From NCBI RefSeq assembly GCF_031312595.1, contig NZ_CP133592.1, forward strand, positions 558,001 to 622,000: 64,000 bases of DNA, given 5' to 3'. The stretch's first letter is position 1. Each line of letters opens with the position of its first letter. Made by a program: the position numbers and the translations under genes. The notes under the pieces were generated by a model, which saw only the letters and a program-made list of their open reading frames with translations, was not told the DNA's origin and ran no database searches. Below are positions 8,564 to 23,752 of the stretch, piece by piece. The stretch is from Methanolobus sediminis (GTDB taxonomy: Archaea > Halobacteriota > Methanosarcinia > Methanosarcinales > Methanosarcinaceae).

Positions 8564-11500
8564 ATGGAAATAAAAACAGTAGGTAATAGCATGCACAGGG
8601 ATTCAGCCGGATACAGGGCATTGTTTGAAAATAAACATACTGCAATGATCATAATAGATCCTTCTACCCTTGATATCATAGACGCAAACGTTGCTGCCTG
8701 TAACTATTATGGATTATCCTATGAGGAACTTACCAAAAAGAAAGTATTTGAAATAAGTTCTTTATCCGAAGAAAAGATGAAGCTATGTGTAAAAAAAGCG
8801 ATCACAGGAACACAGGACCACTTCTTCGGAAGCTTCAACCTGCCTGATAAAAAGAAACACGATGTTGAAGTATACACAACGCCTCTAAAAATAAAAGATC
8901 AGGAACTACTTTGCTTAACCATCCATGATATAACAAGAATAAAAAATGCAGAGGAAAAGCTACACCTCAGGGAGAACAGACTGAAAACACTAGTGGAAAT
9001 ATTGCATTCAAAACATGGTTCCATCAAAGAAGCACTTGATTATGCACTTGAAAAAGCAATCGAATTAACTGAAAGCAAATATGGATACATATTTTACTAT
9101 AGTGAAAAAGAAGAATTGTTCACTGTAAATACATGGTCTGCAAGTGCGATGAAAGAATGTGACATTCATGAAATACAAACCACCTACAGACTAAATGAGA
9201 CCGGGATCTGGGGAGAGCCGGTCAGACAACGTAAAGCAATTATCATTAATGACTTCCATGCTCCGGATCCGCTAATAAAAGGATATCCGCAGGGACATGT
9301 TAAAATTCACAAATTAATGAGCATACCTGTTTTCATGAACAAGAAAATTGTCGCTGTAGTAGGAGTTGCCAACAAAGAATCTGATTACTGTGACAATGAT
9401 ACACTCCAGCTTTCCCTGCTTATGAATTCAGTATGGAACATCATAGGGCAGATCGGTACAGAGGAAGCTCTCAGAAAAAGCGAAAAGAAGTACCGTGGCC
9501 TTTTTGAGAACAACATAAGCGGGGTAGTGATCACTGAGATCATCAGAGATGAAAAAGGTACTCCAATAGATTTTGTTTTTCAGGAAGTAAATGAGACTTT
9601 TGAAAAGAACACCGGGCTTAAAGCTGATGATCTGATAGGGAAACATGCAAGTGAAGTTTATCATGACATGGAGCTGCAGGATAACATACTTCTTGACCTG
9701 CATCTGAAAGTGGCGACTAACGGAATCCCAATTACCATCGAAACATATTCGGAAAACTTGAGAAAATACTTTGATATTAATGTGTACCCGATCGAAAAAG
9801 ATATCGTTGCCAGTGTTTCCCGGGATATTACCAAAAACAAGCTGACCGAACAGGAACTGGCAGAAAGTCAGGAAAAGTACCAGATGCTTTCAGATCTGAC
9901 TTTTGAAGGTATAACTATTCATGATAACGGAATTATCCTTGAGGTTAATGAAGCTGTAACTCGCCTGACAGGATATACTAAAGAAGAACTTATAGGGAAA
10001 AATATCCTGGAAGTCCTGGCACATCCTGATGATCTTGCTAACATAAAACAGCAGATGAAAAGGGAGAACACAAAACCTTATGAGATCCGCACTATCAGAA
10101 AAGATGGAACTGTAATTATAACTGAGATTGAATCCCATGCAATCACATACAAAGGAAAGAAGGTTCGTGTAGCTGCAGCAAGAGACATCACGGAGCGGAA
10201 AAAGGTAGAGCAGGAACAAAGGGAAATAGAAGAGAGATTCAAGACACTCCATAGCACATCTTTTAGTGGTATTTTCATCCACAAAGACAACATTATAATT
10301 GACTGTAACCAGGGACTTGCAGACATGACTGGCTACACGGTTGAAGAACTTATTGGAATGAATGGACTGCTGCTTACAGATGAAAGTTACAGAGATGAAA
10401 TCGTAAACAAGATTAACATAGATTATCACAAATTATATGAAGTAATTGGAGTCAGAAAAGACGGAAGCAAGTATCCACTTAGTGCACATGGAAAAGATAT
10501 CCCATACAAAGGTGAGAAAGTCAGAGTTGTTGAGTTCAGGGATATAACTGAGCAAAAGAAAGCAGAAGAAAGACTGCTTGAGAGTGAGGAAAAACTAAGG
10601 TTGTTCATAGAACATGCACCTGTGTCGCTGGTGATGTTGGACCGTGATATGCGACACATAGCTGTAAGCCGTCAGTTTCTCGATGATTTTTCCCTTGGTG
10701 ACAGAGATATAATAGGACTAAATCATTATGATGTCATCCCTCTTGATGAGAAATATAAAAAAATGCATCTACGTGCACTTCAAGGAGAAATTGTACCAAT
10801 AGAAGAAAACTATTTTGTGGGAGAAGATGGAAAAGAATATTGGACATGTGGGGAAGTCCGGCCATGGAAAATGGCAGATGGAAACATCGGCGGAATTATA
10901 GTTTTCGTCGAACACATCACAGAGCGCAAAGAAGTTGAAATAGCACTTCGGGAAAGTGAAGCTCTCCTGAATGAGGTAGGGATACTCGCCAGAGTAGGAG
11001 GATGGGACTTTGATGTGGCAAGCGGAGTCGTTAAGTGGACACCTGAAGTTTACGAGATATTAGACCTCGAGCCTGATTTCAAACTTGCTTACGGAAATAC
11101 ACTGGAATTCTATTCTTCTGGCTCAAGGAAAAGTGTGGAAAAAGCATTCAAGGATGCTATTGAGAAAGCTGAACCATATGACCTCGAACTTGACTTCACG
11201 ACTCCAAAAGGCAATCATAAATGGATAAGGACCATCGGACATCCAACAATCAAAAACGGAAAAGTGGTAAAGGTAACCGGCTCATTCCAAGACATAACTA
11301 TAATTAAAGAAGCAGATATAAAACTTCTTGAAAGTGAGAGTCGTGTAAGGCGCAAGTTAAATGCTATTATGGAACCGGATGGGGACATCGGTGAACTGGA
11401 ACTTGCAGACATCATTGACAGCCAAATTCTGCAATCCCTTATGGATGATTTTTACCGATTGACCCACATTGGAAGTGCTATAATTGATAACAAAGGAGAA

Positions 11501-14500
11501 ATCCTAGTTGCTACTGGATGGCAAGACATCTGCACAAATTTCCATCGAACACACCCAGAGACATGTAAATATTGTGAAGAGAGTGATACACAATTCTCCA
11601 AAGATATATCTCCGGGAACATTCAAGATTTACAAGTGCAAAAATAACATGTGGGATATCGCAACACCCCTAATGGCTTCAGGAATACATTTAGGCAATCT
11701 GTTTCTGGGACAGTTTTTCTTTGATGACGAAGATATTCCATACGATACTTTCAGGTTTCAGGCAAAAAAATATGGGTTTGATGAAAAAGAATATATGGAC
11801 GCACTTGAGAAAGTGCCCCGCTGGAGTAGAGAAACCGTCAATACCGTCATGAATTTCTATAGCCAATTAACGTCTTTCGTCTCCTCGCTGAGCTACAGCA
11901 ATATCAAACTTGCACGGACACTGAATGAACGTGACAATCTGCTCACCTCTCTGCACGAGAGTGAGGAAAGGTTGAAGATATTCATAGAACATGCACCTGC
12001 TTCTCTGGCAATGTTCGATCGAAATATGCGATATATAGCCGCCAGCAACCGTTGGATGAATGACTACTTCCTTGGTGATCAAAATGTAATTGGAATATCA
12101 CATTACGAAATATTCCCCGAAATCGGTGACGAATGGAAAGCAGTGCATAGGCGAGCTATGGAAGGAGAGGTTGTTCGTAATGAAGACGACCGTTTCGAAC
12201 GGGCAAACGGAACTATACAGCACTTGCGCTGGGAAGTAAGACCATGGAAAGCGGCTGATAGTACCATTGGTGGCATTGTCATTTTCTCAGAAGATATTAC
12301 TGAGCGCAAGAAGATAGAAAAGGAACTCCGGGAAAGCCAGAAAAAGTACCAGATGCTCTCTGATGCTACCCTGGAAGGTATTGTCTTCCATGATAATGGC
12401 ATAGTTCTTGATGTTAATCAAGCCGTGATCCGTGGTACAGGGTATTCAAAAGATGAACTTTTGGGAAAGAATATTCTTAAAATGGTCCTGCATCCTGACG
12501 ACATAGGCATAGCTATCCATAAAATGAAAAATAAAGTTTCAAAACCCTATGAAGTTCGTTGTATCAGGAAAGACGGATCAGAATTCCCAGTTGAAATTGA
12601 ATCCTATAGTATTACCTATAAAGGAAAACAGGTGCGTGTCGCGGCAATAAGGAATATCACAGAACGCAAAAAAGCTGAACATGAACTTAAAGAAAGTGAA
12701 GAAAGGTTCAGAGTTCTCCATAATGCTTCTTTTGGTGGCATCCTTATCCATGAAAATAAACTGATCCTTGATTGCAACCAAGGTCTATCTGAAATGACTG
12801 GCTATTCATATGAAGAATTGATAGGTATGAACGCGTTGCTGCTGATAGCCGAGAGCTATAGGGACCTTGCTATGTCAAATCTCCGTGCAGGCTCTGAAGA
12901 ACCATATGAAGCAATGGGACGACGCAAAGATGGAACTGAGTATCATATCAGACTTGAAGGAAAGAATATACCATACAAAGGAAAACAGGTAAGGGTAGTC
13001 GAGTTCAGGGATATTACAGAACAGAAATTAGCTGAAAAGAACTTGCATGAGAAAACCGAAGAACTTGAAGCTTATTTTACATCCAGTCTTGATCTTCTGT
13101 GCATCGCCAATAACAAAGGAGAATTCATCCGCCTTAATCCTGAATGGGAAAACGTACTTGGATATTCCATGGAAGAACTTGTAGGACGTACCTTCCTGGA
13201 CTTTGTGCATCCTGACGATCTGGAAGCAACTATAGAAGTAATGGGTAAACTGAAAAAGCAGGAAAAAATTATTCGTTTTGAAAACCGCTACCTTGCCAAA
13301 GATGGATCTTATCGCTGGATTGAATGGCGTTCTGTGCCTATTGGTAATGTAATATACGCAGCTGCAAGGGATGTTACCCAGCGAAAAGAAGCAGAAGAAA
13401 AACTGATGGAAAGGGAAGCGCTTCTTAATGAGGTAGGAGATATTGCAAAGATAGGAGGATGGGAGATTGATCTTATATCTAACAAACCCACCTCGACACC
13501 CGAAGTTGCAAAGATATACGAGCTTGATACTGATGATGCAATAAATAGAGAGATGGGATTATCATACTACCCTCCTACATCCAGGGAAATACTTGAAAAA
13601 GCTATTAATAAGCTCATCGAAAAAGGAGAGCCATATGAACTCGAACTTGAATTAATATCAGCCAAAGGAAAACATAAATGGGTTCGAACAAGTGGTTTTC
13701 CGAAGGTAGTAAATGGAAAGATTGTCAAAATAACCGGAACACTGCAGGACGTTACAGAGCGTAAGTGTGCTGAAGAAAAACTGTTGGAGTATGCTGAGGA
13801 ACTTGAAGACAAGAACATCGAGCTTGACCAGGCACTGATAAAAGCAGAAGAAGCCACCAGAGCAAAAAGTGAGTTCCTTGCCAACATGTCACATGAGATA
13901 CGTACACCAATGAACGGTGTGATAGGAATGACAAACCTGCTCCTTACTACAAAACTAGATGAAGAGCAGGAGCACTATGTCGATACAGTAAAGAAAAGTG
14001 GAGAAAACCTACTTGAGCTTATCAATGATATTCTTGATATCTCTAAGATAGAAGCTGGAAAGCTGGATATTGATGAAGTGGACATCGACCTCCAGAAAGT
14101 TCTTGAAGAGCTGGCATCTCTTTTGTCTATAAGAGCATATGAAAAAGGACTAGAGTTTATATGCATAGCTGATCCTGAAGTACCACTTTACATCAAAGCA
14201 GACCCTGCAAGGTTAAAACAGATACTGATAAATCTTGGTGGCAATGCAATTAAATTCACAAACGAAGGAGAAGTTGCTATCCAGGTCACACTTGAATCTG
14301 AAAGGGATTCAGAGGCAACACTATGTTTCTCTGTAAGAGATACAGGTATAGGAATCCCTGATGATAAAAAGAACTTGCTTTTCCAGAAATTCACCCAGGT
14401 TGATGCTTCAACAACACGTTATTACGGAGGAACCGGGCTTGGGCTTGTAATCTCAAAAGAACTTGTTGAACTGATGAACGGTGAAATAGGTTTTGAAAGT

Positions 14501-15793
14501 GAGGAGGGTAAAGGTTCTGAGTTCTGGTTCAAACTAAGCTTTGAAAAGCGTCCTGGAAGTGAAATCCCGGAAAAACAGTACTCAGAGATTGAAGGCATTC
14601 GCGTACTTGTTGTTGATGATAACGAGACTAAACGCGAAGTGTTGGTGAAGCTGCTGGATTCATGGAATATGAAAGTTGAGGAAGCAAAAGATGGATCTTC
14701 AGCCCTCCAGAAACTTTTCAAAGCACACGAAGAAGGAGAACCATTCCAGATAGCTATTCTGGATATGCAAATGCCGGGAATGGATGGAGCACTGCTTGGA
14801 CGTGTTATAAAATCAGACAAGGATCTGAATAATATTTCATTGATAATGCTTAGCTATGCAGGAAATATGCCTGAAAGCTGGAATCTGAATAAAAGTAATT
14901 TTGCAGCTTGCCTTTCAAAACCCCTCAAAGTCTCAGAACTATTCACTAAATTATCATCACTGTATTCCGCTACTCAAAAGGCTGAAAGAGAAGAGGTTTT
15001 TGGAGAAGAACTTGAAACATTCGGCATTAGCGGCAAAGAAAGAATCCTGCTTGTGGAGGACAATGTTGTAAACCAGCATGTTGCTCAGGCTATGCTCCAG
15101 AAACTTGGTATTACTGCAGATGTTGCAAACAACGGACTGGAAGCTATCGAAGCTCTTGAAACAATACCTTATGACCTTGTATTTATGGACATACAGATGC
15201 CTGAAATGGATGGAATGGAAGCAAGTAAGCATATACGCAACAAGCAATCCTCGGTCATAAACCATGACATCCCAATCATTGCTATGACCGCACACGCAAT
15301 GAAAGGGGACGAAGAAAAGTGTATAGAAGCAGGTATGAACGACTACATACCAAAACCTATTAATCTGAAATTACTTGCCGGTAAAATTAACAAATGGATG
15401 GATCATGATCCGAAAAAGAACTATTCAATAAATCTCCCGGATAAAAACAACAAAGAGCCCCTGGTATTTGACTATAAGCTATTTATGGAAAATATCATGG
15501 ATGATATTGTTGTGGCCAGAGGGATTATTGAGATCTTCAATAGAAATGCACCTCGTCAGATTGAGGAGCTGAAGGAAGCTATTGATAAAAAGGAGATGAC
15601 TGATATCGTAAATAACGCACATTCACTAAAAGGTGCTGCTGCAAGTGTTGGTGGAATGGCGTTGAGTGATATTTCTGCTAAAATTGAGATGCAGGCAAAA
15701 TCCGGACAAATAAATCAGATAATAGAAATGCTTCCAGACCTGGATAACAATTATGAACTTCTTATACAAGAACTAGAGAAATGGCAAAGCTGA
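8564..15793 (+). CDS. Giant hybrid sensor histidine kinase (11 PAS, GAF, PocR, two REC, HPt)
   Basis: A 2409-residue cytoplasmic phosphorelay protein with no transmembrane segment. Order, approximate: PAS1 13-125, GAF 150-298, PAS2 306-425, PAS3 435-545, PAS4 556-662, PAS5 675-786, PAS6 801-913, PocR-type ligand domain 944-1103, PAS7 1136-1249, PAS8 1261-1369, PAS9 1380-1489, PAS10 1502-1610, PAS11 1620-1734, HisKA with phospho-His1777 (NMSHEIRTPMNG), HATPase (DTGIGIP, GGTGLGL), REC1 with Asp2067, REC2 with Asp2209, HPt with His2353 (NAHSLKGAAA). All relay residues are present, so it should be active. PAS3-4 resemble PAS8-9, PAS5 resembles PAS7 and PAS6 resembles PAS11, indicating block duplication. 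The PocR domain has CxxC-type cysteines. Output partner not adjacent. Confidence 0.93.
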   Translation: MEIKTVGNSMHRDSAGYRALFENKHTAMIIIDPSTLDIIDANVAACNYYGLSYEELTKKKVFEISSLSEEKMKLCVKKAITGTQDHFFGSFNLPDKKKHDVEVYTTPLKIKDQELLCLTIHDITRIKNAEEKLHLRENRLKTLVEILHSKHGSIKEALDYALEKAIELTESKYGYIFYYSEKEELFTVNTWSASAMKECDIHEIQTTYRLNETGIWGEPVRQRKAIIINDFHAPDPLIKGYPQGHVKIHKLMSIPVFMNKKIVAVVGVANKESDYCDNDTLQLSLLMNSVWNIIGQIGTEEALRKSEKKYRGLFENNISGVVITEIIRDEKGTPIDFVFQEVNETFEKNTGLKADDLIGKHASEVYHDMELQDNILLDLHLKVATNGIPITIETYSENLRKYFDINVYPIEKDIVASVSRDITKNKLTEQELAESQEKYQMLSDLTFEGITIHDNGIILEVNEAVTRLTGYTKEELIGKNILEVLAHPDDLANIKQQMKRENTKPYEIRTIRKDGTVIITEIESHAITYKGKKVRVAAARDITERKKVEQEQREIEERFKTLHSTSFSGIFIHKDNIIIDCNQGLADMTGYTVEELIGMNGLLLTDESYRDEIVNKINIDYHKLYEVIGVRKDGSKYPLSAHGKDIPYKGEKVRVVEFRDITEQKKAEERLLESEEKLRLFIEHAPVSLVMLDRDMRHIAVSRQFLDDFSLGDRDIIGLNHYDVIPLDEKYKKMHLRALQGEIVPIEENYFVGEDGKEYWTCGEVRPWKMADGNIGGIIVFVEHITERKEVEIALRESEALLNEVGILARVGGWDFDVASGVVKWTPEVYEILDLEPDFKLAYGNTLEFYSSGSRKSVEKAFKDAIEKAEPYDLELDFTTPKGNHKWIRTIGHPTIKNGKVVKVTGSFQDITIIKEADIKLLESESRVRRKLNAIMEPDGDIGELELADIIDSQILQSLMDDFYRLTHIGSAIIDNKGEILVATGWQDICTNFHRTHPETCKYCEESDTQFSKDISPGTFKIYKCKNNMWDIATPLMASGIHLGNLFLGQFFFDDEDIPYDTFRFQAKKYGFDEKEYMDALEKVPRWSRETVNTVMNFYSQLTSFVSSLSYSNIKLARTLNERDNLLTSLHESEERLKIFIEHAPASLAMFDRNMRYIAASNRWMNDYFLGDQNVIGISHYEIFPEIGDEWKAVHRRAMEGEVVRNEDDRFERANGTIQHLRWEVRPWKAADSTIGGIVIFSEDITERKKIEKELRESQKKYQMLSDATLEGIVFHDNGIVLDVNQAVIRGTGYSKDELLGKNILKMVLHPDDIGIAIHKMKNKVSKPYEVRCIRKDGSEFPVEIESYSITYKGKQVRVAAIRNITERKKAEHELKESEERFRVLHNASFGGILIHENKLILDCNQGLSEMTGYSYEELIGMNALLLIAESYRDLAMSNLRAGSEEPYEAMGRRKDGTEYHIRLEGKNIPYKGKQVRVVEFRDITEQKLAEKNLHEKTEELEAYFTSSLDLLCIANNKGEFIRLNPEWENVLGYSMEELVGRTFLDFVHPDDLEATIEVMGKLKKQEKIIRFENRYLAKDGSYRWIEWRSVPIGNVIYAAARDVTQRKEAEEKLMEREALLNEVGDIAKIGGWEIDLISNKPTSTPEVAKIYELDTDDAINREMGLSYYPPTSREILEKAINKLIEKGEPYELELELISAKGKHKWVRTSGFPKVVNGKIVKITGTLQDVTERKCAEEKLLEYAEELEDKNIELDQALIKAEEATRAKSEFLANMSHEIRTPMNGVIGMTNLLLTTKLDEEQEHYVDTVKKSGENLLELINDILDISKIEAGKLDIDEVDIDLQKVLEELASLLSIRAYEKGLEFICIADPEVPLYIKADPARLKQILINLGGNAIKFTNEGEVAIQVTLESERDSEATLCFSVRDTGIGIPDDKKNLLFQKFTQVDASTTRYYGGTGLGLVISKELVELMNGEIGFESEEGKGSEFWFKLSFEKRPGSEIPEKQYSEIEGIRVLVVDDNETKREVLVKLLDSWNMKVEEAKDGSSALQKLFKAHEEGEPFQIAILDMQMPGMDGALLGRVIKSDKDLNNISLIMLSYAGNMPESWNLNKSNFAACLSKPLKVSELFTKLSSLYSATQKAEREEVFGEELETFGISGKERILLVEDNVVNQHVAQAMLQKLGITADVANNGLEAIEALETIPYDLVFMDIQMPEMDGMEASKHIRNKQSSVINHDIPIIAMTAHAMKGDEEKCIEAGMNDYIPKPINLKLLAGKINKWMDHDPKKNYSINLPDKNNKEPLVFDYKLFMENIMDDIVVARGIIEIFNRNAPRQIEELKEAIDKKEMTDIVNNAHSLKGAAASVGGMALSDISAKIEMQAKSGQINQIIEMLPDLDNNYELLIQELEKWQS

Positions 15794-20070: not shown

Positions 20071-20095
20071 GGTTTTTTTGACATATTGATGCTTT

Positions 20096-20218
20096 GATAC
20101 GTCTGATAGCTTTGACCCTCTGTGAGCGATTGTAGTGAGAACTTGTCAAGGTGAAATATTTGTTTCGGATTTTATTCTTTGCATGCTTGTGAAGGGATAT
20201 AGGTAACAGTAAAAAAAC
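20096..20218 (+). repeat. Duplicated upstream element, copy 1
   Basis: Shares GATACGT-TGAT, GAGCGATTGT-GTGA-AAC and TTCGGATTTTATTCTTT-CATG-TT blocks with 22419-22551. In both places it precedes a secreted-protein gene and its second conserved leader block. Purpose unknown; it may carry an upstream transcript end or a regulatory site. Confidence 0.6.
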
Positions 20219-20279
20219 AAACTTTTTACAAAAATATTACCTTCGAGCTCATAAAATTTATTGATAATTACTATATACA

Positions 20280-20446
20280 ATGAAACACGAATTATTTATG
20301 GGAGTTTATATTGGTCTGTGGGGGTTGGCAAGGCATAACTGCCTCTTTTTTTGAATGTGGTGATTCTTGGCATGTCCTGCCTTATTGATAGTTGTCTCTA
20401 TAGATGTAGATGACTCTTCATATTTTAACATAAGGTGGGAGGAATA
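20280..20446 (+). promoter_or_regulatory. Duplicated structured leader, copy 1
   Basis: About 140 bases closely matching 22691-22828. A TATATACA element at 20272-20279 would start transcription near 20300, leaving a leader of about 145 nt before the start at 20447. The leader holds a short hairpin, GGCA (20327-20330) with TGCC (20340-20343), followed by T7 (20346-20352), which looks like an attenuator or terminator, and a second GGCA/TGCC hairpin at about 20369-20381. The first hairpin covaries with copy 2. Confidence 0.55.
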
Positions 20447-20962
20447 ATGAGAATTAAACAAAATATTACATTTTGTGGTATAGCTTTGATATTCCTGATA
20501 ATGTTTACAGGAATTGCTGTAGCACCTCCAGTGGATGCACCAGCCATTAGTTTTGAGAAATCTACATTGGGCACAGACGGAGTTTGGTATGATGCCGATG
20601 TAGCACCTGGACCATCCATCCCTATTGGTGGATCGGTTGAGTGGAAATATGTGGTTACAAACATTGGTAATGTGCCTTTGACCGATATTTATGTTGATGA
20701 TGATCAGATTGGTAATGTCGCCTATATAGCGACACTTGAAGTAGGTCAATCCGTGACAGTTACCGTCTCTGGTGTAGCTGTAGCTGGCCAATACGAAAAT
20801 ATTGGTTCTGCTTCAACTTCATACTATTCAATATATCTCTATGAAGAGGATCCCAGCCACTATTATGGTTATGACAATAAAATACCAGAATTCCCAGCAA
20901 TTGCACTCCCTATAGTTGCAATTATTGGACTTGCATTCATAATGCAGCGTAGAAGAAACTAA
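20447..20962 (+). CDS. Secreted PEF-CTERM protein with DUF11-like domain
   Basis: A 171-residue exported protein. It has an N-terminal signal peptide (ITFCGIALIFLIMFTGIAVA), an Ig-like DUF11/DUF7507-type domain (GGSVEWKYVVTNIGNVPLTDIYVDDD then LEVGQSVTVTVSG), a Tyr-rich linker, and the C-terminal sorting signal IPEFPAIALPIVAIIGLAFI followed by basic residues. That tail is a PEF-CTERM, processed by an archaeosortase and linked to surface anchoring in Methanosarcinales. The start at 20447 has GGGAGG upstream. The archaeosortase is not in this window. Confidence 0.85.
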   Translation: MRIKQNITFCGIALIFLIMFTGIAVAPPVDAPAISFEKSTLGTDGVWYDADVAPGPSIPIGGSVEWKYVVTNIGNVPLTDIYVDDDQIGNVAYIATLEVGQSVTVTVSGVAVAGQYENIGSASTSYYSIYLYEEDPSHYYGYDNKIPEFPAIALPIVAIIGLAFIMQRRRN

Positions 20963-20963
20963 T

Positions 20964-20982
20964 TGAAGGGAATATCCCTTCA
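20964..20982 (+). terminator. Hairpin terminator of the PEF-CTERM gene
   Basis: TGAAGGGA and TCCCTTCA form a perfect 8-bp stem around an ATA loop directly after the stop codon. T-rich sequence follows shortly. Confidence 0.55.
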
Positions 20983-21109
20983 CCCTATTTTATACTGTAT
21001 GATTTGTTGAAGAATAGAGATAAACTGAACTTTGATTAAAAATATCTGTTGTTTATAAATCTTAATATGAAATAACATATATTTGAAACAATTTTAACAT
21101 GAAAAGGAG

Positions 21110-21137
21110 AACACCGGCAAAACAAACCGGTGTTTTA
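21110..21137 (+). terminator. Hairpin with T-run
   Basis: AACACCGG (21110-21117) pairs with CCGGTGTT (21127-21134) and is followed by T residues. A TTTATAAAT element about 55 bases upstream suggests it could end a very short transcript of its own. Confidence 0.4.
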
Positions 21138-21287
21138 TGAAGTACCAATCCCTAGTCTTACCCAAACCAATTATAGATAGTAATACTTAAAATATAAATT
21201 ATTGCTTAACAGTGTTACTTGACAAAAAGATGGATTTTATACATATCTAATCAAAATGGTTATTCTGCAGAATAATTGAAAATTGCA

Positions 21288-21361
21288 TGAGGCATGTGAT
21301 TTAGGGAGTGGTGGGTTATTGTATGGGGGTGGTAGGTAAAATGAGATGTGTACATGCCTCA
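21288..21361. ncRNA. Stem-loop with G-rich loop, possible small RNA
   Basis: TGAGGCATGT (21288-21297) and ACATGCCTCA (21352-21361) are perfect 10-bp complements enclosing a 54-nt loop rich in GG/GGG runs (GGGAGTGGTGGG, GGGGGTGGTAGG). TATA-like elements lie on both sides, so the strand is unresolved. The rest of the 500-bp spacer shows no gene. Confidence 0.35.
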
Positions 21362-21461
21362 ATTTCAGTACGAGAGACTATTATTTATAGGTATCTATAA
21401 TAATATAATATAAAATGATTAATATATATCAAAAATCTACCAATCTACACAACGACAAAGT

Positions 21462-21659
21462 TCATCTATCTTTGAATCTAGTTCTATCGCCTTGATCATC
21501 AGCATTTGATTTTCCAGGACCGATATCTACTCCTATACCTGGCTGTTCACCATCTTCCCCATTATAATTTTCACCGCCTGATTCTTCCGTTCCATCAAAA
21601 TAAGCAGCAGCTATGAGCAAAATCAGTATCATGATTAGTACTTTTTTTACATTTCTCAT
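21462..21659 (-). CDS. Small membrane-anchored acidic protein, 65 aa
   Basis: A 65-residue protein with an N-terminal basic-hydrophobic anchor (MRNVKKVLIMILILLIAAAYF) and a hydrophilic Gly/Asp/Glu-rich tail (GTEESGGENYNGEDGEQPG) that would lie outside the cell. No cysteine lipobox. No family recognised. No clear ribosome binding site precedes ATG 21659, so the message may be leaderless. The in-frame sequence upstream (to 21749) contains a fragment of the tiny-ORF family seen at 22269 and 23672, and is probably not translated as part of this gene. Confidence 0.5.
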   Translation of the reverse strand: MRNVKKVLIMILILLIAAAYFDGTEESGGENYNGEDGEQPGIGVDIGPGKSNADDQGDRTRFKDR

Positions 21660-21722
21660 GTATGATAATATGTAATTATCTCTTATAATAAGGATATGAC
21701 AATTAGATTTTAAAGTAAAAGA

Positions 21723-21749
21723 CATGTCAGCTTCAGCATTCATCTGCAT
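21723..21749 (-). pseudogene. Fragment of the MKKN-ADKSFILN tiny-ORF family
   Basis: Nine codons reading MQMNAEADM, then SF, match the start of the peptides at 22269-22361 and 23672-23752. The similarity stops after about 12 codons, so this is a truncated copy. Confidence 0.35.
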
Positions 21750-21777
21750 GTAATGGAGAGTACGATTGTTAGCATTT

Positions 21778-22218
21778 CTACTTCGTAGATGCTTGAAATT
21801 CAGCTTCCACTGTTTTTAAGTCAATTGCTCCTAAGATTGCACTTTCCAATTTTTCAGGTTCATCTGTACCTATCCTGTATATCTTACCGTTTTTCATCTT
21901 AATCTCAACTGCATCAAAACCGGAAACATTGAATATCCACATTTTAGGCCATAGCCATAGTCTTATTCCCCAGCCATAATACCAATGATTCTTTACGGTT
22001 CTTGCTGAAACAATCTCATTAAGCGAAAACTTCTTACGAAATATGCCATAACCGAATTTTATTCCAAGGTATTTTTGGTCAATCGTTACGTTAAGGCTTG
22101 AAAATGAAAGGATAATTAACACAACGATTACCATCACAGCAAAGGTCATTGGTTCAAAATTTGTCGTTGGTAACATATATGCAAAAAGCAAAACAAGTGC
22201 AAGTACGACGTATCTCAT
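21778..22218 (-). CDS. Membrane protein with PH-like domain
   Basis: A 146-residue protein with two N-terminal transmembrane helices (YVVLALVLLFAYMLP and MTFAVMVIVVLIILSF) followed by a soluble domain with the pattern of bacterial/archaeal PH-like folds: LNVTIDQKYLGIKFG, FSLNEIVSARTVK, then VSGFDAVEIKMKNGKIYRIGTDEPEKLESAI. Such proteins are of unknown function at the membrane. ATG 22218 follows AAAAAGGA by 6 bases; the upstream ATG at 22251 lacks such a site. Confidence 0.65.
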   Translation of the reverse strand: MRYVVLALVLLFAYMLPTTNFEPMTFAVMVIVVLIILSFSSLNVTIDQKYLGIKFGYGIFRKKFSLNEIVSARTVKNHWYYGWGIRLWLWPKMWIFNVSGFDAVEIKMKNGKIYRIGTDEPEKLESAILGAIDLKTVEAEFQASTK

Positions 22219-22268
22219 TAAACGTCCTTTTTGAGTGTGATTATAGTTCATATTATTACGTTAGTTAG

Positions 22269-22361
22269 TCAGGTTAAAAGCTTTGCTTCCCACATCTCTA
22301 ACCTTTCCTTTACATGAGTATTCAAAATAAACGATTTGTCTGCTTTAACATTCTTCTTCAT
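22269..22361 (-). CDS. Tiny ORF, 30 aa (MKKN-ADKSFILN family)
   Basis: Thirty codons: MKKNVKADKSFILNTHVKER then LEMWEAKLLT. A second full copy (23672-23752) and a truncated one (21723-21749) occur nearby. GAGGG lies about 7 bases before the ATG, so this copy may be translated. The peptide is basic with an amphipathic helix and an LEMWE motif. I do not recognise it; it could be a real small protein or the conserved end of a mobile or decayed gene. Confidence 0.4.
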   Translation of the reverse strand: MKKNVKADKSFILNTHVKERLEMWEAKLLT

Positions 22362-22418
22362 ATAGTACCCTCAAATAGCTATGAAAGCTGCTAGGTAGGG
22401 ACTTTTTACGGTGGTTCA

Positions 22419-22551
22419 GGATACGTATGATCTGAAAAACGGTGCTGTTAGGAGCGATTGTGGTGACAACTCGTTAGGGTGCTTACTGAATAAATTGGTT
22501 CGGATTTTATTCTTTTCATGTTTAGGGGATGTAGGTAAGCAGAAAAAACGG
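22419..22551 (+). repeat. Duplicated upstream element, copy 2
   Basis: Matches 20096-20218 in several blocks (GATACGTATGAT, GAGCGATTGTGGTGA, TTCGGATTTTATTCTTTTCATG). It again lies upstream of the structured leader and a secreted-protein gene, though the gap to the leader is about 80 bases longer than in copy 1. Confidence 0.6.
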
Positions 22552-22690
22552 AAATCTTAAAATTTACAACACATGTTTTTCAGTAAATAATTGGATACTA
22601 TTATTTTACAGTTATCAGTGTCAATATTATTATATTCATATCATATATTATCCCACAACAGATATAATTATTTATTAATGTATAAATAGG

Positions 22691-22852
22691 ATGAAATACG
22701 AATTGTATATGGGAGTTCATATTGGTCTGTGGGGATTGGTAAGGCATAACTACCTATTTTTTTGAATATTGTGATTCTAGGCATGTCTTGCCTTGTCGAT
22801 AGTTGTCTCCATAGATGTAGATGACTCTATTGAACAATTTAAAGGGGAAGGA
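22691..22852 (+). promoter_or_regulatory. Duplicated structured leader, copy 2
   Basis: Counterpart of 20280-20446. TATAAATA at 22681-22688 would start transcription near 22710, giving a leader of about 140 nt. Its first hairpin is GGTA (22738-22741) with TACC (22751-22754), followed by T7 (22757-22763). Compared with copy 1 the third base pair changes from C-G to T-A with the loop AGGCATAAC unchanged, a compensatory substitution. The second hairpin is AGGCA/TGCCT at about 22779-22793. Confidence 0.55.
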
Positions 22853-23551
22853 ATGATGAATCGAATGGAAATTATCTTAGTCGTGCTCTGTGTCCTTCTA
22901 CTCACAACCGTTGGTGTGAGCGCCGCTGACGACCAGCAGAAGCTGCCTCCGAAGTATCGCGTGATACAGTTTGACGTGACATACTCCGGTGAGGTCGTCG
23001 GCGAGTTGAGCATAAACACTAATCAATGGACATACGTCCTGAATGCACACGGACTGGAACCCGGCACAGAATACTACTTCTACTCTCTGGGGCGGTTCCC
23101 CCAGATCAGTACAGGAACGGCTAATGAAAACGGCGATCTGCACTTGAAAGGCGAATGGCCGCAGGAGATAAATATTATAGAAAATGAGTTGTCAGCTCCT
23201 AAGTTTATTGTGTCGACAATACCGCTAACAGGCATCATTGCTTGGACACCGCAACTGACGGCAAAATGCCACATAGGACTGTTTCAGACGTCTGTCTGGG
23301 GCACGCTCACAGATTCCAATGGAAATCCGTTACCAGGCCAAACCATAAGGGTCGAGGGGTACGTGAAGAAAACTGACACATGGAGCGTGTGGTATTCGAT
23401 AGAAACCGATGCTTACGGCACATTTAAAAAGACAAAATTTGGTACCCCTGACTCTCTTCTGGTACGCTACCAAGGAGGCGAATATGATGGAACCCTGTAT
23501 CTTAGTACATGGGTCGTCCCTACTTTATCAGCAGTAGTTCCAGCATTTTGA
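22853..23551 (+). CDS. Secreted protein of unknown function, 232 aa
   Basis: Begins with a cleavable signal peptide (MEIILVVLCVLLLTTVGVSA, cleavage before ADDQQ). Residues about 35-105 look like a beta-sandwich domain (LNAHGLEPGTEYYFYSLG, GTANENGDLHLKGEWP). Residues about 150-225 resemble a carboxypeptidase-regulatory/transthyretin-like domain (GTLTDSNGNPLPGQTIRVEG, ETDAYGTFKKTKFG). No sorting tail or anchor, so it is probably released. GGGGAAGGA precedes ATG 22853. Its codons are more GC-rich than the surroundings (for example GACGACCAGCAGAAGCTG), suggesting recent acquisition. Confidence 0.65.
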   Translation: MMNRMEIILVVLCVLLLTTVGVSAADDQQKLPPKYRVIQFDVTYSGEVVGELSINTNQWTYVLNAHGLEPGTEYYFYSLGRFPQISTGTANENGDLHLKGEWPQEINIIENELSAPKFIVSTIPLTGIIAWTPQLTAKCHIGLFQTSVWGTLTDSNGNPLPGQTIRVEGYVKKTDTWSVWYSIETDAYGTFKKTKFGTPDSLLVRYQGGEYDGTLYLSTWVVPTLSAVVPAF

Positions 23552-23579: not shown

Positions 23580-23645
23580 AAAGGGAAAACGTGCGGTAGT
23601 CAGAATGAAAGCACACATAAGGAGTGTTCACGCTTCCCTTTTCAT
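23580..23645 (+). terminator. Long hairpin terminator of the secreted-protein gene
   Basis: AAAGGGAA (23580-23587) plus CGTG (23590-23593) pair with CACG (23629-23632) plus TTCCCTTT (23634-23641), with a small internal bulge. T-rich sequence follows. Confidence 0.5.
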
Positions 23646-23671
23646 TTTACCTAATGTTTTGTTTTTTTCCG

Positions 23672-23752
23672 TCATAGTTCCCACATTTCCAACCTCTTTC
23701 TCACATGAGCATTCAGGATAAATGACTTATCAGCTTCAGCATTCTTCTTCAT
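23672..23752 (-). CDS. Tiny ORF, 26 aa (MKKN-ADKSFILN family)
   Basis: Twenty-six codons: MKKNAEADKSFILNAHVRKR then LEMWEL. It is a close relative of the 30-codon frame at 22269-22361 (differences A-E for V-K, A for T, R-K for K-E). No ribosome binding site is visible, so this copy may be decayed. Function unknown. Confidence 0.35.
   Translation of the reverse strand: MKKNAEADKSFILNAHVRKRLEMWEL

Follow-up and report, generated by a model that had tools for sequence, protein, structure and literature searches.

A candidate structured 5'-leader RNA ahead of unrelated secreted-protein genes in Methanolobus and Methanococcoides

Within the window, the 64,000-nucleotide stretch of Methanolobus sediminis DNA analysed here, two unrelated secreted-protein genes are preceded by similar blocks of sequence, which raises the question of what the shared block does and whether it acts as DNA, as RNA or as a short coding frame. 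The first-pass annotation had described the two blocks as strongly similar, and this was borne out by a gap-free direct repeat of 184 nt (20234-20417 and 22645-22828, 82% identical; blastn of the repeat blocks gives 84% identity, E=1e-47), with patchy similarity further upstream (20124-20188 and 22452-22523). It had also placed each block ahead of a different secreted-protein gene and at the 5' end of a transcript. Both genes indeed encode a signal peptide, and in both copies a TATA-like box lies about 32 nt before the structured core, which puts the block at the predicted transcript 5' end (Table 1). A separate segment of about 60 bp upstream of copy a (20087-20146) recurs in the genome at G000:C1:2726278-2726336 with 87% identity; the models find no leader there. 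In our reading, the block specifies a new, lineage-restricted structured 5'-leader RNA that would act in cis on the mRNAs of secreted and surface proteins in Methanolobus and Methanococcoides, though it may have been described before. That it is a real structured cis leader is very probable from the comparisons of homologues given below.

Table 1. Features of the two leader copies and the genes behind them, in window coordinates. E-values of the covariance model rest on a short calibration.
Feature	Coordinates	Strand	Basis or remark
Copy a, structured leader core, 112 nt	20304..20415	+	Covariance model R3, 125.5 bits, E 7e-30
Copy b, structured leader core, 112 nt	22715..22826	+	Covariance model R3, 114.5 bits, E 5e-27
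TATA-like box, copy a	20273..20279	+	Best TATA match, centred 32 nt before core
TATA-like box, copy b (TATAAATA)	22681..22688	+	Sequence; about 32 nt before core
P1 5' strand, copy a	20306..20324 (20306-20309, 20314-20324)	+	RNAalifold; pair counts; phylogeny-aware null 1/2000
P1 3' strand, copy a	20395..20413 (20395-20405, 20410-20413)	+	RNAalifold; pair counts
P1 5' strand, copy b	22717..22735 (22717-22720, 22725-22735)	+	RNAalifold; pair counts
P1 3' strand, copy b	22806..22824 (22806-22816, 22821-22824)	+	RNAalifold; pair counts
AAGGCA, copy a	20330..20335	+	Partner either local, 20340-20343 (terminator-like), or long-range, 20378-20383 (rod)
TGCC + TC + T7, copy a	20340..20352	+	3' arm of local hairpin and T-run; alternative partner of TGCC is GGCA 20369-20372
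GGCA-TGTCC-TGCCTT, copy a	20369..20383	+	Local hairpin or 3' strands of rod
AAGGCA ... TACC + T7, copy b	22741..22763	+	C-A mismatch in the local AAGGCA hairpin
GGCA-TGTCT-TGCCTT, copy b	22780..22794	+	Sequence
Gene 1: signal peptide, DUF7507-like domain, PEF-CTERM sorting signal	20447..20962	+	TIGR03024 31.3 bits against cut-off 23; PF24346
Gene 2: secreted, signal peptide, no sorting signal	22853..23551 (start codon 22853 or 22856)	+	

Homologues were collected with covariance models, the first of which (R1) was built from 14 copies and was succeeded by R2 and R3. Together these models give 24 credible copies in 14 genomes, all of them Methanolobus (10 of 27 genomes) or Methanococcoides (4 of 11), with 1-4 copies per genome; the search of 238 genomes found no credible copy in the class beyond these two genera, and none in Methanosarcina. 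The cores are 98-112 nt long, and members differ by indels. Three of the 24 copies are in this genome, where blastn alone gave only two significant copies (and more in relatives); the third, at G000:C1:7715-7817 on the minus strand (32.5-33.6 bits), lies ahead of a gene for a NosD-like secreted protein. Homologues with paired changes had been named beforehand as the test of an RNA structure, and they were found. Weaker model matches that score no more than about 25 bits, both in Methanolobus and in other genera (L058-L070, L072, L103-L108), were set aside, since those inspected lie in coding DNA or have no signal-peptide gene downstream, and viral contigs that contain the core word do not match the model. 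No Rfam family (release 15) matches the window leaders or two Methanococcoides copies, permissive E-values included. The members are 24 related sequences, which limits statistical power.

The main feature of the fold is a long-range stem, P1, and not the hairpin to which the first-pass annotation had drawn attention. RNAalifold on 14 copies places P1 at columns 3-6/109-112 and 11-21/94-104, so that the nucleotides predicted to open the mRNA are paired with a segment a little upstream of the ribosome-binding site, over a span of about 90 nt. Its pairing is 0.906, against 0.74 in a null that preserves phylogeny and rates, and this value is reached by 1/1500 and 1/2000 replicates; the null keeps per-column change counts on the tree of a structure-blind alignment, in which one gap placement beside the T-run was shifted by hand. 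Between the two window copies P1 has one-sided changes only (U to C in column 4, G to A in column 21, U to C in column 98) and retains standard pairs throughout.

The minimum-energy folds of most copies extend P1 into a rod, in which AAGGCA (27-32) pairs with UGCCUU (77-82) and then ACUGCC (35-40) with GGCA-U-GU (68-74), leaving the U-run in the apical loop. Over 23 copies, 93.0% of the cells of the rod are paired, none of 500 shuffles reaches its pairing or its covariation score, and sliding the partner strand lowers pairing to at most 50%. Double changes are seen at 8 pairs where 3.3 are expected (23 copies), and the compensatory column pairs include 3-112, 4-111, 31-78, 35-74, 36-73 and 39-69. 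The full rod is reached by 0/2000 replicates of the phylogeny-aware null. Taken separately against the same null, the AAGGCA:UGCCUU helix is reached by 52/2000 and the 6-bp inner helix by 23/2000, while the 4-bp UGCC:GGCA core of the latter is not above it when scored alone (841/2000). The inner-rod pair 38-70 is broken in four copies, window copy b among them, and folding z-scores are near 0 in several members (L036, L042, L051). Overall pairing discriminated better in these tests than double-change counts per helix, which were mostly uninformative. Alignment A3 was fitted to the R1 structure, which consists of P1 and local hairpins without the inner rod, and the support for the inner rod is therefore independent of the fit. 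Judged by these comparisons, P1 is well supported and the inner rod more weakly so. The homologues keep their secondary structure through sequence change and hold a consistent position in the predicted 5' UTR before a functional class of genes, both of which are marks of a structured cis-regulatory 5' leader.

Inside P1, two mutually exclusive pairings share strands: the rod and a terminator-like local hairpin, AAGGCA-nnnn-TGCC-T7. A short hairpin followed by a T-run is also what the first-pass annotation had reported, and its letters are correct, with GGCA 20327-20330 and TGCC 20340-20343 in copy a, GGTA 22738-22741 and TACC 22751-22754 in copy b, the loop AGGCATAAC in both, and T7 at 20346-20352 and 22757-22763. 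The change from C-G to U-A on which it relied is real; as evidence of covariation it does not stand, being one pair in two copies. Nor does this 4-bp hairpin hold up as the conserved structure, since 79.5% of its cells are paired over 23 homologues, 462 of 500 shuffles reach that level, and 9 of 22 cannot form its second pair. The local hairpin pair alone has no covariation above shuffles, which favours the rod over the local hairpins. Against the phylogenetic null, the local hairpins together (P2+P3) are reached by 26/2000 replicates; both rod and local hairpins are modestly above that null, which does not cleanly separate them.

The exclusive pairings could serve a conditional attenuator, in which AAGGCA-nnnn-UGCC-U7 would stop transcription unless its strands were captured by the rod or by a bound factor. 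Terminator/antiterminator attenuators are similar in having exclusive pairings with common strands and a U-run after the hairpin. Since the two pairings cannot coexist, the arrangement has the logic of such a switch, and the result for P2+P3 is in its favour, as is L046, which has AAGGTA in place of AAGGCA and TACC at both partner sites. A run of at least 6 T follows within 26 nt of the local stem in 17 of the 24 members; the other seven lack one (L040 has only 3 T), unlike the known attenuators, and these also differ from the present element in that its local hairpins have no covariation above shuffles. Six members, among them window copy b at -0.8 kcal/mol, have a weak hairpin or none when it is taken in isolation (0 to -1.1 kcal/mol). 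Furthermore, the strand that competes with the hairpin is synthesised only after the T-run, and archaeal RNA polymerase stops at T-runs without needing a hairpin, both of which count against this explanation. A terminator hairpin with a T-run in every one of the 24 members was not found, and attenuation at the T-run, which the first-pass annotation had named as one of three possible functions, is not family-wide given the seven members without such a run. Attenuation may operate in some copies, but as the explanation of the element it is rather unlikely.

The position of the leader relative to promoter and gene is regular. Apart from L033, a clear exception, the homologues have a TATA-like box whose centre is 27-32 nt ahead of the core; where another AT-rich stretch scores best as TATA word, as happens in a few rows, CTTATAA or TGTATATA can still be seen at that distance. 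The spacing from TATA box to start in archaea is 25-27 nt, which would put the start of transcription at the core or within a few nucleotides of it. Behind 22 of the 24 copies stands a gene whose N-terminus, inspected by eye, reads as a Sec-type signal peptide; its start codon is usually 26-35 nt past the core, and the ribosome-binding site is outside the fold. The reported number of signal-peptide proteins in Methanolobus psychrophilus R15 is only 83 (PMC5378194). L033 (genome G021) is an orphan leader with no secreted gene behind it, and in L036 (genome G005) the signal-peptide frame behind the leader is interrupted near its start.

The mature proteins encoded behind the leader are unrelated and include PEF-CTERM proteins, NosD-like repeats, PKD domains, beta-propeller-like proteins and small secreted proteins without an assigned kind. 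Paralogues of gene 1 occur in this genome and a homologue in G002 (48-59% identity), and the three upstream regions of its relatives that were examined have no leader, even with filters off. The leader is therefore modular, being absent from gene 1 paralogues within one genome. Gene 2 has no homologue in the 26 other Methanolobus genomes. A link to PEF-CTERM and archaeosortase was considered as the unifying feature and rejected, because TIGR03024 gives no match above the search threshold in two Methanococcoides genomes that carry 4 and 2 elements. This genome has 13 PEF-CTERM (TIGR03024) matches, and of the three genes linked to elements here, gene 1 alone has the signal. With gene 2 lacking homologues in the other Methanolobus genomes, the examined relatives of gene 1 leaderless and two Methanococcoides genomes without a PEF-CTERM match, the leader is tied to neither one protein family nor one sorting system, and it behaves as a module that has been duplicated and joined to non-homologous genes. 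The number of PEF-CTERM matches across genomes of the genus ranges from 0 to 24.

A single element shared by unrelated genes of one class, those for secreted proteins, would also suit a leader that binds a ligand or a protein, with the rod and the conserved U-rich apical loop recognising a metabolite or an RNA-binding protein and so co-regulating a few envelope proteins. In its favour, positions such as the GGCAT stretch and the T-run are conserved as much as the stems or more. However, no biosynthetic or transporter gene is associated with the element, the gene set suggests no ligand, no Rfam family matches, and the element has just 1-4 copies per genome and is missing from most congeners, so that we regard this explanation as rather unlikely. 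The high sequence conservation, and the duplication of the upstream promoter region along with the block, could instead point to a promoter module at the level of DNA, a regulator-binding region downstream of the TATA box whose RNA form is incidental. This is quite unlikely, since stem partners about 90 nt apart stay paired, often via G-U intermediates, well above the rate-preserving null, which is expected of RNA and not of DNA-binding sites, and since the position is fixed to both the TATA box and the start codon. The possibility of a leader peptide arises from a small upstream frame of 24 codons (MKHELFMGV.../MKYELYMGV...), whose ATG lies shortly before the core in each window copy; the frame is open in both and ends at a TGA after T7. 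Its ATG, at 20280 or 22692, precedes the transcription start deduced from the TATA box, and ATG or frame is missing in homologues, among which indels occur; with frames that are not conserved, a leader peptide was rejected and is extremely unlikely.

The preferred explanation is that the cis leader folds into the rod and protects the 5' end of the mRNA. Transcription would begin at or a few nucleotides from the conserved block, as the TATA spacing suggests, and local hairpins, including AAGGCA-nnnn-UGCC-U7, would presumably form first as the RNA is synthesised. The finished leader would then be a long irregular rod closed by P1, with the inner helices AAGGCA:UGCCUU and UGCC:GGCA and an apical loop that contains the U-rich stretch. 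Such a rod would bury the 5' terminus of the mRNA but keep the ribosome-binding site accessible, and the buried terminus would be protected from 5'-end-dependent decay, which would set the expression of the secreted-protein gene that follows. The inner hairpins that compete with the rod may allow this protection to be adjusted. Protection of the 5' end is tentatively taken as the main mechanism and as the single likeliest mode of action, because P1 is the best supported stem, begins at the predicted first nucleotides, and stabilising long leaders have been reported in the family (PMC5378194). The explanation as a whole, combining cis leader, rod and 5'-end protection, falls somewhat short of an even chance. 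A bolder version, which we consider unlikely, is a two-state archaeal RNA switch within a portable promoter-leader module for envelope genes: hairpins formed co-transcriptionally, one of them terminator-like, would rearrange into a rod that seals the 5' end, and a signal such as cold, envelope stress or a bound factor would pick the state and so decide which secreted proteins are displayed.

Structured 5' leaders that stabilise the mRNAs of envelope-protein genes are known from E. coli ompA and the Lactobacillus S-layer gene slpA. These resemble the present element in their structured mRNA 5' end, free ribosome-binding site and cell-surface proteins behind the leader, but they are bacterial and have no sequence relation to it, and stabilisation is here a proposal from sequence. 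To our knowledge, archaea offer few examples of conserved structured RNAs that act in cis, and very few beyond the widespread riboswitch classes. In Methanolobus psychrophilus 24% of the mRNAs have 5' UTRs of more than 150 nt (PMC5378194), and work cited in that paper indicates that long 5' UTRs help to stabilise the mtaA and mtaC transcripts at low temperature in a cold-adapted methanogen. Such long structured 5' UTRs of Methanolobus and Methanosarcina are comparable as long leaders from this family with reported or cited effects on mRNA stability and translation, cold included (PMC5378194), but they have been described gene by gene, whereas here one fold recurs across unrelated secreted-protein genes. 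The element is also like the orphan cis-regulatory RNA motifs of Weinberg et al. 2010 (PMC2864571), with a conserved structure upstream of a functional gene class and no function assigned; a text search of that paper found no mention of a methanogen, Methanosarcina or Methanolobus. The element comes in 24 naturally occurring variants, is sharply positioned with respect to both the TATA box and the start codon, and has a clear target class in the secreted and surface proteins. If the proposed function is true, it would show how methanogens co-control fast-changing envelope proteins without orthology among the proteins.

Two other features of the window may be mentioned. Truncated frames at 22250-22361 (-) and 23600-23752 (-), with the near-identical starts MKKNVKADKSFILNTHVKERLEMWE and MKKNAEADKSFILNAHVRKRLEMWE, lie on either side of gene 2 and are apparently decayed copies of one small gene, with 79% DNA identity over 75 nt. 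At 8564-15793 (+), a single open frame of 2409 aa resembles a sensor histidine kinase with multiple PAS domains plus response-regulator and Hpt parts.
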